64,000 nt of DNA from Solicoccozyma terricola (Eukaryota; Basidiomycota; Tremellomycetes; Filobasidiales; Piskurozymaceae). Shown in pieces: positions 4,131 through 43,541 of this stretch (the stretch's first letter is position 1; every line of letters starts with the position of its first letter). The position numbers and the translations under genes are program-made. The notes under the pieces are model-generated. The model was given only the letters and a program-made list of their open reading frames with translations. It searched no databases and was not told the origin of the DNA. Where the stretch lies: NCBI GenBank assembly GCA_001600875.1, contig BCLD01000018.1, positions 429,521-493,520 on the forward strand, given 5' to 3'.

Positions 4131-4177
<47 letters not shown>

Positions 4178-4494: not shown

Positions 4495-4580
<86 letters not shown>

Positions 4581-12406: not shown

Positions 12407-14328
<1,922 letters not shown>

Positions 14329-15700
14329 ATTGATAGATGTTTAGATAGGGATTTAGGTTTTAAGAAGGATGAATACTATCAACGAGCAAAGAAGAAGGGG
14401 GGGGGGGGGCAAAATATGTCAGTATTTACGATTCTGGGTATTCTGATACACGAACAAAACCGTCAAAACGGAACAACGCGGACTCGACACAGCTTCGACA
14501 GCGGAATATCCGACCGGGAAAAAAGAAAGAAAGAAATGATCAAGTCGGTTGTTTGGAGAAAAAGGAACCCCCCTCCCCCCCTCTCTCTCTTCCCCCAAAT
14601 CAACGCAGTGAGATTTTTCGAACGGTGCTGATTTCCATTCGAAATTCGTTTCCAGAAAAGGAGAAAGAAGAAAAAAAAAAAGAAGAAAAGAAAAAGGGAA
14701 AGAAATCACGTCCCCCCTCCCTTCAATCCCATCTCATCTAATCAACGAAAAGAGGGAATGCTCGATTCGTTCGAAGAAGAGTATTGCTCATTTCGTTCGC
14801 GAAGAAAGAAGAGTATTGCTCGCTTCGCTCGCGAAGGCGGCAAAGCTCACTACGTTCGCGAAGATATCAATGCTCGCTTCGCTCGCGGAAGAGAGCGCTC
14901 CCTAACCAGAGCACGGTCTTTGCTCCACAAAGACAGCAGAGTATTTGCCTCGCTTCTCTCACGGAAGAAACAAGCTTCCTAAACGCGCGCCATACCCTCC
15001 ATTCCGCGAAGAAAATGAGAGGTTCGGAGCGTATGCTGTGCAAAACCCCGCCCCCGCCTTCTTCCCATCCCATCCAACCCCTCAACCGTTCTAACCATCA
15101 CGCACGACCAAAGTCGCCATACCCCGTATAACCAACCGCCCGTCGTATGAGTTAAAAGCGTGGTGATGGTGATATGAGTCGTGCGAGTGAGCAAGATAGG
15201 ACCGGGGGTAGGGGTTGAGGGGGGGGTGTGTCGTGGAAGTTGAAAAACTAAATTGATGACCTGGATATCTCCCCCATCCCTTTCCCCCTCCCCTGCGCAC
15301 TCCTCCCTTCCCCACTACCTCTCGCAACGCATCGACCTGGATTCACTCACCGTTTCGCAGATTGGTACGTGGTTACGTATGGGAGTTATGTACGATGTAT
15401 GGACAATGCCCCGTATGCGATGGAGTTGAGCTGGCACGCGCAGGATGAGGTCATCCAATCGGGATTACACGGGAATTGGGGGGCGACGGGGATTCTCACG
15501 ATGGGAAGGGGGGGGAGGGGAAAGGGTAGGGCAGGGTAGGGGTAGGGGATGACTCACCGGGGGCACAACGCATTCTCACGGTGGGAGGGGAGGGGAGGGA
15601 TGGGAGAGCGAGCTGACGCGGTGTTTCATTCAACCAACCACCCAAGAGACCATCGTAGATAAATCAACATATCCACCACACACACCACACACCGCCCACC
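14329..15700. promoter_or_regulatory. Divergent ACT1/RPN10 intergenic region
   Basis: About 1.37 kb between the ACT1 start (minus) and the RPN10 start (plus). The ACT1-proximal part is purine-rich (homopurine tracts at 14640-14705), followed by a short repeat array (14757-14990). The RPN10-proximal part contains two copies of ATTCTCAC(G/A)TGGGA-type sequence (15492-15506 and 15572-15586) and several G-rich runs. No protein-coding gene is supported; the open frames around 14758-15131 translate the repeat. Confidence 0.5.
14757..14990 (-). repeat. GCGAGCGAAGCGAGCA short tandem array, ACT1 upstream copy
   Basis: Around seven to eight imperfect units read TGCTCGCTTCGCTCGCGAAG on the plus strand, that is CTTCGCGAGCGAAGCGAGCA on the minus strand, the ACT1 sense strand. 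Spacing is about 27-33 nt. It is the same family as the arrays in the RPN10 and CHS5 introns, and lies about 430 bp upstream of the ACT1 ATG, possibly in the 5'UTR or a 5'UTR intron. Confidence 0.85.
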
Positions 15701-18058
15701 ATGCCTCTCGAAGCTTGTATGATCGTGTGAGTTACCCTTCCGTCCGTCTACCACGTTATTCATCATATCACACTTCTCATTAATCAACAACCCTTTGCCG
15801 CGGTGAATTCATCATCATCCATCATAGAATGGACAACTCGGAATTCATGAGGTTAGCGTTCTAGACAAGTTCTTAACTGGGGAAATATACCGAATATAAC
15901 CTCCATCCTATCCTCCCCCCCCCCCCCCCCCCCCCCCCCAACACACAAACAGAAACGGAGATTACCCGCCAACTAGATTTCTAGCTCAGAATGACGCAGT
16001 TTCTCATATTTTTAATGCAAAGACGGGGAGTAATCCGGAGAATACGGTCGGGTTGTTGAGTAGTGCTGGGAGGTGAGTGAGCGTAGTGAGGGCGAGCGAA
16101 GCGAGCGTGTTTCTGTATTCTGTCTTCGCGGAGCGAAGACCCAGGCTCCCTAACGGGAGCTCTTCCGCGAGCGAAGCGGCGAGCGAAGCGAGCACTGGTT
16201 TCTTCGCGAACGTAGTGAGCACTCATCTCTTTGCGAGCGAAGCGAGCACTCATCTCTTCGCGAACGTAGTGAGCACTCATCTCTTTGCGAGCGAAGCGAG
16301 CACTCGTTTCTTCGCGAGCGAAGCGAGCACTCATCTCTTCGCGAACGGAGCGAGCAATAATACTATCTCGTACGCGGAGTGAGCAATTATCAGTGTCTCT
16401 CGCGAAAGGAATGAGCAATACACTCTCCCGCGAGTGAAGCGAGCAATTCTCTCCCGCGAGTGTGGCGAGGGATACTCTCTCGTGAAGGGAGTGAGCAATA
16501 GTCCTCTCTCGCGAACGAATCGAGCAATATATTCTCTCTCGCGAACGAAGTGAGTAATCACTCCCTTCGCGAGTGTAGCTAGCAATGCTCTCTGCCGAAC
16601 GGAGTGAGTAATACTCCCTTCGCGAGAGTAACTAGCAATGCTCTCTCCCTCGCGAACGGAGCGATCAACAAATTCTCTCTTCCGCTAGTGTGGCGAGCGT
16701 GTGAATACTCTCTCTCGCGAGTCTTACGGAACAATTCTCTCTTCCGCGAGTGTAGCGAGCAATACATTCTCTATCTCGCGAACGATGTAGGCGCTGCTCT
16801 CCAATACGCTCGAGTCCATTGCTCGGTTCACTCGCGGAGACGTGACGTCCCATCGATCCGTTAGCCGTGCGACGAACTCGGAACTCCGTCTCCTCCAGCT
16901 ACCTTGAGTGGAAGAAAAATAGCCACCGCATTTTTGCTAACAATTCTGCCGCTTGCTTCACTCAGCCCTCAAGTCCTCGCAACCCTCACCCAAGACATTG
17001 GTAAAATCCTCTCAGCAATTTCCAAATCCAACATTGGCGGTCAAACAGACCTGTTAACCTCATTAAACGTCGCTTCACTCGCTTTGAAACATCGAGAGAA
17101 TAAGAATCAGCGTCAACGGATAATATGTTTTGTTGGTTCGCCGGTTGACAACACCACCACCACCACCACCACCACCACCACCACCACGTCATCCTCCTCC
17201 ACTAACGGAAAAGAAAAGATCGAAGAGAGTTTGGTAAAGTTGGGTAAAAAATTGAAGAAGAATAACGTAGCTGTAGATGTGATTGTCTTTGGTGATGAAG
17301 GAATGAAAAGTGAAGATTCATTGAGGAAATTCATCGAAGCTGTTGGAAGTGGTGATAACAGGTAAATGTCTCTCGCTCACTCGCCAACCTTTTCTTAATC
17401 AACTTGGGGGACTTTTCTTTAACACCCGCCCCCGTCATCATCACAGTCACATCGTATCGATCCCACCAGGTCCACATCTCCTATCCGACCTCATCGCTTC
17501 ATCTCCAATCCTAGCTGCGGAAGGCGGAGCAGCGGCAGCAGGTGGAGTCGACGCGGAAGGTTTCCCAACCGGTGATTTCGGTGATGTTGCAGGGGATTTA
17601 GGTGGTGGTGTCGGGGCAGGTGAATTTGGTGGTATAGATCCAAATATGGATCCGGAGCTTGCGATGGTGAGTTTGGCGGAGAGGGACGTTGGACCGCCCA
17701 AACCCCCCCGGCTAACATGCCCACTTCACATCAGGCCATTCGCATGTCGATACAAGAAGCGGAACAACGAGAACGTCGAGAACAAGAGGCGGCTGGTGCG
17801 TCTGCCGCCGCGGCATCGTCCGACGAAGCATCGTCCGAATCAGCCCCTCTCCTACCCGCAGCCACACACGATGACGACATCAGCATGGAAACTGAGCATC
17901 CGACCGCACCCGCCGCCGCCGCACCCATCGTTGACGCTGAGATGGTAGCAAACGATGACGAGGACGATGATGAGGATGAAGAAGCGGCGATGTTGAAAGC
18001 TATTGCGATGAGTATGGAGAATCAGGATGGGGAAGGAGATGAAGGGAAGAAGGATTGA
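15701..18058 (+). CDS. RPN10: 26S proteasome regulatory subunit RPN10 (ubiquitin receptor)
   Basis: Polyubiquitin receptor of the 19S regulatory particle, related to human PSMD4/S5a. A vWA domain occupies about residues 1-190: MPLEACMIVMDNSEFMRNGD, GSNPENTVGLLSSAG, LTSLNVASLALKHRENKNQR, ICFVGSPV, DVIVFGDEG. Two ubiquitin-interacting motifs follow: DPELAMAIRMSIQEAEQ and AAMLKAIAMSMENQ near the C-terminus. The tail is acidic. Exons 1 and 2 are each 26 nt. The intron at 16073-16965 is 893 nt, almost filled with a tandem GC-rich repeat, and ends with a branch-like TGCTAAC (about 16935) and CTCAG. A 12-residue poly-threonine insertion encoded by (ACC)n follows VGSPV. An intron also interrupts the first UIM between LAM and AIR. 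Confidence 0.95.
16077..16865 (+). repeat. GCGAGCGAAGCGAGCA tandem array in RPN10 intron
   Basis: About 25-28 imperfect units with period 24-30 nt and core CGCGARYGWAGYGAGCA, separated by short pyrimidine-rich spacers such as CTCATCTCTT. Units grow more divergent toward the 3' side. The core contains an inverted repeat, TTCGC-GA-GCGAA. It fills nearly the whole 893-nt intron in the same orientation as the gene. Confidence 0.93.
17150..17188 (+). repeat. (ACC)n microsatellite coding poly-Thr in RPN10
   Basis: Twelve ACC codons in frame, followed by TCATCCTCCTCC serine codons, give a Thr/Ser run between the vWA strands after VGSPV. Confidence 0.9.
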
Positions 18059-42074: not shown

Positions 42075-43506
42075 ATGGAGCGCTGTGAGAGAGACAGACA
42101 CACAGACATCACCCGAGCATATACTGAATATGTCGATCCTTCTCTCCTCACAGTCACATTCACCGTCGGCAAGCTCGGTAAGTCGTGATTCCCAACGGTC
42201 AGGGGTTAACAATGTGGCATGGCAGGATATTGATATGTTATCCCCTTGGTCGGGTCCCTTTTCCCCCAGACGCTGGTATGGCCGTAAGTGACACATAGGG
42301 AATATGATTGATAACCTCGATGGTACTGACAAACCATCTGTGTACAGATACTGATCGGTGGGTTGACCACGTTTTCCCACACCTACCAATCATCGAATCA
42401 CTCCCGCTGATCAGCCCCCCCCCCCCCTCTCCCTCTCCGGGTCTCCACAACTCCAGGTGAACGCGCACACCTCATCGAATTCCCTTCCCTTCTTCTCCCA
42501 CCTGGTGTAACATCAGGTTCCATCGTCAACATATCCGTCGATCGAAATACAGCAGCTGAACAAGCACAAGCTAAAGAATTTTGGTCATTACAAGATTCAA
42601 TACTTCAAGAATATGGATTATCAACTCCTCAACCACCTCAATTAAAACTCAGACATGTTACTCAAACGAGCGTTACATTAGAATGGCAGAGTTTAGATCT
42701 AGCTAAAGCGAAATTGAGAAGTTTGGAAATATTGAAAAATGGAACGAGGTTGGCTACGATACCGAATCCTACAGTTAATACAAGTACGAAATTGAGTTCG
42801 TTGCAGATGAATGAGGAGTATTCGTTTCAATTGATTTTGTGAGTGCTGGTTGGATCGTTTCGTCAGCGAGCGAAGCGAGCATTCTTGTCTTCGCGGAGCG
42901 AAGACTATTTTATGCGAGCGCAGCGAGCAATATTCTCTCTCGCGAGCGTAGCGAGCATTAATCTCGTCGCGGAGCGTAACGTCTTCTGCGAGCGTAGTGG
43001 GCATTATTCTTTTTCGCGAGCGTAGTGGGCATTATTCTCTTTCGCGAGCGTAGCGACTTCTTGTTGTTCCTCCTTTGCGAGCGGCGAGCATTCATTCCTC
43101 CGCACGCGTAGGAACATGTTGTCTTCCTTCTTTGCGCACGAAGCGAGCATCTATTTCTTTGCGGAGCGAGGACGATGTCTTCCGCCAGCGCAGCGAGCAT
43201 TATTCTCTCTCAACAGCGTAGCGACTTCTTGTCTTCCTTCTTTGCGCGTGAAGCGAGCATTTATTTCTTCGCGGAGCGAAGACGATGTCTTCCGCAAGCT
43301 CAGCGAGCATTCTTGTTTTTTTTCTTCTCGATGCGTCTCTCCGATAAGCTAATGTCTTTTCGTTTGTTGTGCGGGGGTTTTTTTTTTTTTTATGTAGAAA
43401 AACAACGGCTGGTACATATCCTTCGAATATCATTCGAGTACGAACCCATACACTACAGTAAGCACCGAAATCATATCCACCGCAGTGCTCTCTCTCCCAT
43501 CCTCAC

Positions 43507-43541
<35 letters not shown>

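Follow-up and report, generated by a model that had tools for sequence, protein, structure and literature searches.

The window analyzed here is the whole 64,000-nt stretch of Solicoccozyma terricola DNA; it lies on contig C18 of a genome of 23.89 Mb in 33 contigs and contains the gene RPN10 on its forward strand (Table 1). Ab initio gene finding misread RPN10, codon bias being too weak in this genome, and splice-site proximity, homology, and exon junctions were therefore used instead. Splicing of the six exons yields a translation of 369 residues followed by a stop codon. The first 188 residues align to solved Rpn10 chains in the PDB, with a one-residue gap at the junction of the array-bearing intron, and the full protein is 54% identical to its counterpart in Filobasidium floriforme and 50 to 65% identical to those of Naganishia species over 75 to 100% of the length; the best identity, 73%, is to a protein without a name. 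A (CAC)12 microsatellite at window positions 17152 to 17187 gives rise to a poly-threonine insert within the conserved vWA region of the protein.

Four of the five RPN10 introns are short (101, 101, 85, and 68 nt), whereas intron 3 measures 893 nt. An earlier note on this DNA described a tandem repeat filling that intron, and the array is real: it was also called by Tandem Repeats Finder, the window holds 27 matches to a 17-nt core (≤3 mismatches) against 0.13 expected from dinucleotide shuffles (largest shuffle, 1), and positions 16073 to 16965 can be spliced out in frame. The unit number given at the time, 25 to 28, was right in that many imperfect units are present but slightly too high, as 24 were counted.

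Table 1. Positions of the array loci, their host genes, and associated sequence elements in the window
Feature	Position	Strand	Details
RPN10 gene	15701..18058	+	exons 15701-15726, 15828-15851, 15953-16072, 16966-17361, 17447-17666, 17735-18058
RPN10 intron 3, array host, 893 nt	16073..16965	+	GTGAGT...CAG; frame open; Rpn10 alignment crosses junction
5' splice site GTGAGT, RPN10 intron 3	16073..16078	+	from sequence; overlapped by degenerate unit 1, starting at 16077
Tandem array in RPN10 intron 3	16077..16792	+	24 units, ≤4 mismatches each
Hairpin module A, GTCTTCGC-GGA-GCGAAGAC	16122..16140	+	from sequence
Hairpin module B, GCTCCC-TAAC-GGGAGC	16145..16160	+	from sequence
Putative branch-point motif GCTAAC, beyond the array	16936..16941	+	spotted by eye
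Second array	14760-14962	-	actin sense; start codon of actin (14328) about 430 nt further downstream; presumed 5'-UTR intron
Actin exon ORF	13069..13818	-	Pfam PF00022
CHS5 intron, 559 nt, within fn3_2 domain	42839..43397	+	GTGAGT...TAG; in-frame junction EEYSFQLIL/KTTAGTYPSN
Third array, in the CHS5 intron	42866..43308	+	10 core matches, gene sense

Across all arrays studied, unit spacing is mostly 27 to 28 nt, with 22 to 23 nt also found, and the spacers are 78% C+T, in agreement with the earlier description of them as pyrimidine-rich. The RPN10 array also carries two hairpin modules. GCGGAGC centers, which mark module A, were present in 39 of 62 arrays, with fully paired arms in part of these only; the palindromic module B sequence CTCCCGTYAGGGAGCTC has 62 exact copies genome-wide. 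The RPN10 copy of module B has the loop TAAC, the reverse complement of GTTA, while other copies have GTTA or GTCA; its inner part is inverted, as though the palindrome had flipped. The CpG observed/expected ratio is 1.49 in the arrays versus 0.94 in the window; the arrays thus bear no deamination scar, and the suggestion that the repeat is a methylation target finds no backing in its composition.

The window also contains long poly-C tracts of up to 85 C (4496-4580, 4133-4175, 15915-15939, and 43509-43538); the tract at 15915 lies inside an RPN10 intron and that at 43509 in the CHS5 region. When 69 C or G runs of at least 15 nt in the sampled loci were compared with GTRAGT donors, the link was weak, 16 against 10, and we did not find these tracts convincing as intron features.

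Both other loci of the family in the window are in the sense orientation of their genes, actin and CHS5, as had been claimed. For a minority of the arrays, a same-strand gene is backed by Pfam or PDB matches; in addition to these two and RPN10, such genes encode a D-2-hydroxyacid dehydrogenase, a SEP-domain protein, a guanylate kinase, an NmrA-like protein, NBP35 (with two arrays), a SUR7 protein, and an aminotransferase resembling 5-aminolevulinate synthase (ALAS-like). Host open reading frames (ORFs) for Pfam were picked by eye on the array strand, and 7 of 10 and 2 of 10 reached the cut-off; in all, 9 of 20 array-strand ORFs were at or over it, two of them from one gene, and the opposite-strand set gave 0 of 10. 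For the dehydrogenase and SEP genes, the link between first exon and Pfam-matching ORF was read by eye. The actin and SUR7 arrays precede the start codon and sit in presumed introns. In guanylate kinase, the array intron separates FSGNR from YGTS, a junction at which the best solved match is gapless, and the NmrA-like array falls between exons matching profile positions 1 to 95 and 113 to 274; the PDB alignment has a one-residue gap near the second NBP35 array, and the first NBP35 junction is outside the alignment. Splicing as predicted from the sequence would remove the array intron seamlessly in guanylate kinase and in frame in CHS5. The distance from start codon to donor ranged from 25 to 372 nt in six genes: 25 nt in the dehydrogenase gene, 93 nt in the SEP gene, 108 nt for the first NBP35 array, about 240 nt in the ALAS-like gene, 312 nt in the NmrA-like gene, and 372 nt in RPN10. 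In the ALAS-like gene (L011 5001), the intron carries just one core, which extends over the 5' splice site of that intron (GTGAGCGAGCGAAGCGAGC) and may represent a founding state.

Genome-wide, the degenerate core GCGARCGNAGYGAGC has 807 matches (445 and 362 on the two strands) versus 16 for the reversed pattern. Our sample of 65 arrays came from 20 stretches of 7 to 10 kb, 31 stretches of 1.6 to 3 kb, and the window; apart from the three window arrays, they were picked from 100 places matching an exact 16-mer, all on contigs C1 to C9. Within the 65 arrays, 439 cores were in the majority orientation and 8 in the opposite one, with 58 arrays pure, and the number of core matches per array ran from 1 to 22. 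Exact stretches of up to 53 nt are common to arrays on different contigs. The longest match between loci, 67 identical bases over modules A, B, and core, joins L058 and L059, about 15 kb apart on contig C9. The mean fraction of shared 18-mers between arrays is 0.025 (1,759 pairs), and neighboring arrays (mean, 0.024; 11 pairs) are no more alike than random pairs; arrays paired around a promoter are therefore not local copies, and we dropped local copying between neighbors as an explanation. Judging from these comparisons, each array draws on a genome-wide pool.

Most arrays begin beside a 5' splice-site hexamer, a link to splicing that is stronger than the splicing element suggested earlier. 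Searched in sense over the 120 nt preceding the first unit, GTGAGT turned up in 45 of 61 arrays; the antisense search at the opposite end gave 1 of 61. With the looser GTRNGT within 80 nt of the first core, the counts were 50 of 62 in sense and 5 of 62 in antisense at the far end (62 arrays had enough flank, three being dropped from the 65), compared with 15% of random places; in 19 of the 50 anchored arrays, the first core starts no more than 4 nt past the end of the hexamer. A broad donor set at 120 nt gave 57 of 61 in sense versus 17 of 61 in antisense, and since its background is this high, most arrays are not individually proven to be intronic. Over the whole genome, GTGAGT followed by a core within 30 nt gave 57 sense matches at 54 places versus 4 antisense matches; among the 57, three are a second match at one place, and at least one resembles an internal unit ending in GTGAGT. 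The sense bias is thus beyond what random insertion would give, as the earlier note had argued from the window. By eye, about five of the 62 arrays lack a convincing donor. None was recognized for L014, L029, L040, and L045 at 1492, and the sole candidate for the actin array within 260 nt is GTGCGT. The arrays at L040 653-865 and L029 571-716 have no recognizable upstream 5' splice site and are possible exceptions to the intron rule.

Read as GC-GA-GC-GNA-GC-GA-GC, the core has Watson-Crick pairs at 1-15, 2-14, 5-11, and 6-10, tandem G.A pairs at 3-13 and 4-12, and a GNA triloop. RNAfold formed these pairs in four sense cores, bearing out the proposed core hairpin, and gave no fold in two antisense cores tested; the predicted mini-hairpin is confined to the sense strand. 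Positions 5 and 11 covary: with both positions free in the search, 310 of 477 units had G-C, 116 A-T, 18 G-T, and 13 A-C, and 136 of 168 distinct core words pair at 5-11 versus 116.2 in shuffles (maximum, 129). The A-T form occurs with all loop bases, and the covariation was seen in all four loop backgrounds; the change from G-C to A-T may go back to one or a few old events that then spread. Covariation in module A was matched by 0 of 2,000 shuffles at one pair and by 35 of 2,000 at another, and was not found at four of the six pairs; in module B the best pair was matched by 52 of 2,000, and none was strong. Whole arrays had no extra RNA stability relative to dinucleotide shuffles (mean z, -0.25 sense and +0.33 antisense; 51 arrays). 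Per base, sense was more stable than antisense in 39 of the 51. GCGAAGC, the center of the core, is described in one study as an extra-stable DNA mini-hairpin with a GNA triloop (PMC10527192), so the relevant level may be RNA or DNA. The commonest core center here is likewise GCGNAGC, but the d(GCGAAGC) of that study is an oligonucleotide model, whereas in these genomic arrays the stem is extended by tandem G.A pairs.

Preservation is generally best in the units beside the 5' splice site. The 5' half of the RPN10 array is better preserved than its 3' half, and among the 41 arrays of at least 6 units, analyzed with zero flank, 26 had their more degenerate half on the 3' side, 7 had it on the 5' side, and 8 were tied (p = 0.0013). 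This p value is from the strictest version of the comparison, and three other settings agree; the effect persists with equal or zero flanks but is smaller than with unequal flanks. In the zero-flank version, mean mismatch was 0.46 for the first fifth of the array and had risen to 1.03 by the last.

The explanation that we favor, at a probability that falls just short of even, is that the RPN10 array is one site of a family of dispersed, intron-resident, mobile hairpin repeats whose spread is tied to the transcribed strand. New copies would be deposited at the 5'-splice-site end of pre-existing introns by a copying process that reads the transcribed strand, as intron RNA or cDNA or as the exposed non-template DNA strand. 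Deposited copies would then multiply via tandem duplication, and older units would decay while being pushed away from the splice site. Removal of the arrays by the spliceosome would allow host genes to tolerate insertion, and the hairpin may have been retained because the spreading step needs the fold or because folding of the arrays helps a long intron to remain spliceable. This account is consistent with the sense anchoring at donors, the single orientation within arrays, and the close placement of the first core after the hexamer. The covariation at 5/11, the sense-only fold, and the polarity of decay (26 versus 7) also agree with it, as does the gapless removal in guanylate kinase relative to the best solved match. 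Mobility itself we infer indirectly, from the distribution of sequences: the exact stretches shared between contigs, the 62 exact module B copies, and the lack of extra likeness between neighbors would agree with it. R-loop-driven growth, a version of the non-template-strand idea, was considered and dropped, the GC skew of the arrays being 0.02. Several observations weigh against a mobile repeat: module B lacks strong covariation and module A has it at one or two of six pairs only, whole arrays show no gain in stability over dinucleotide shuffles, and the mechanism alone leaves the frequent presence of arrays on both genes of divergent pairs unexplained. Moreover, selection on an element that functions close to the 5' splice site would likewise produce the polarity and the covariation.

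Such an element would be a promoter-proximal intronic hairpin, of RNA or possibly DNA, that raises expression or splicing of its host as in intron-mediated enhancement; we consider this somewhat unlikely and prefer the mobile repeat only narrowly. The sense placement beside 5' splice-site hexamers and the covariation at 5/11 would suit it, and the arrays have the 5'-proximal, sense, intronic position characteristic of intron-mediated enhancement. Further support comes from array pairs. We listed at least 172 array sites, drawn from genome-wide pattern matches and two window arrays, excluding arrays with the degenerate core only and one antisense-only place on contig C16. Among the listed arrays, pairs less than 3 kb apart were divergent in 12 cases, convergent in 0, and tandem in 2, where uniform placement predicts about 0.9, 0.9, and 1.8, respectively, and 0 of 2,000 simulations reached 12 divergent pairs; within 10 kb there were 14 divergent, 6 convergent, and 10 tandem pairs, the divergent excess being short-range only. 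From this excess among close listed pairs, it appears that arrays favor the 5' ends of genes. The paired arrays have no shared local sequence, and pairing around shared promoters fits a functional element or, alternatively, expression-dependent spread. The hosts also include conserved genes (actin, RPN10, NBP35, and guanylate kinase, for example), which is in its favor, although hosts that can be named from Pfam or PDB are conserved by the method's own selection. We know of no tandem hairpin element that acts as a carrier of intron-mediated enhancement. Strong intronic promoters and intron-mediated enhancement are described for Rhodotorula (PMC5124236). Enhancement by 5'-proximal introns resembles the arrays in being promoter-proximal and intronic. 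On the other hand, at least 172 array sites in a 23.9-Mb genome probably leave most genes without an array, the number of core matches per array is as variable as 1 to 22, and distal units decay.

It is very unlikely that the arrays are a neutral minisatellite, seeded anywhere and kept only in sense in introns after antisense or exonic copies, with their cryptic splice or polyadenylation signals, were purged. Tandem units and clear local duplication, as in minisatellites, are present, and copy number varies, yet many intergenic copies in both orientations would be predicted, and few arrays lack a convincing donor. The earlier note had named 50:50 orientation and a mainly intergenic location as marks of a neutral satellite; instead, orientation and location depend on genes, with sense bias in the sample (45 of 61 versus 1 of 61) and genome-wide (57 versus 4). 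Covariation would need a separate cause, and we disfavor a neutral satellite because it fails to explain placement, orientation, and covariation jointly.

Slightly less likely still is that the arrays arrived, in the manner of fungal introner-like elements, with introns that they created and then expanded: a coding-strand-only, seamless, structured character is reported for known elements and Hypoxylaceae sister stwintrons (PMC8469720), and the ALAS-like gene intron with its single core would agree, but array spans, which are what our comparison covers, share so few 18-mers that the arrays are not copies of one intron, and the loci have units and modules in common rather than whole array spans or near-identical whole introns.

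The arrays have partial parallels in known systems. Yeast mitochondrial GC clusters show that a short palindrome can disperse while keeping its fold, and their movement has been suggested to be RNA-mediated (PMC4478555). These clusters and the double-hairpin elements of fungal mitochondria (PMC4478555, PMC7218506) have a conserved fold and, like the array modules, are short, GC-rich, palindromic, dispersed, and composite; they are, however, mitochondrial, and the GC clusters are mostly intergenic, whereas the arrays described here are nuclear, mostly intronic, in one orientation, tandem, and anchored at 5' splice sites. Introner-like elements and sister stwintrons (PMC8469720) are also repeated, structured fungal intronic sequences found on the coding strand only, but there whole introns with terminal inverted repeats are repeated, in contrast to a unit of about 22 to 28 nt inside differing introns. 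Intron gain via repeat expansion in Cryptococcus (PMC2395259) is another intron-changing expansion in a basidiomycete yeast; unlike the short-unit arrays, it involved duplication of whole introns in one gene. No description of 5'-splice-site-anchored hairpin arrays was found in the literature searched, most subscription papers being outside its reach. No match was obtained for the repeat at the protein level in other organisms, for the module-B-to-core pattern in viral contigs, or for a two-unit pattern in a prokaryote genome collection. Six published papers do contain 12 bases of the core, but we considered them unrelated, judging from the listing alone.

A further possibility, which we regard as unlikely, is that these nuclear arrays, anchored at 5' splice sites, grow at their splice-site end and retain a sense-strand fold because of its action on nascent RNA from promoter-proximal introns, in many cases for both genes sharing a promoter; if so, they would form a new, spliceosome-linked class of repeats that serves regulation. 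If the repeat spreads via the transcribed strand, the growth of introns at one fixed site could be read from the arrays by counting, which would inform the study of intron lengthening and of the movement of intronic repeats. Should the arrays act on expression, intron-mediated enhancement in fungi could be tested on a compact system.
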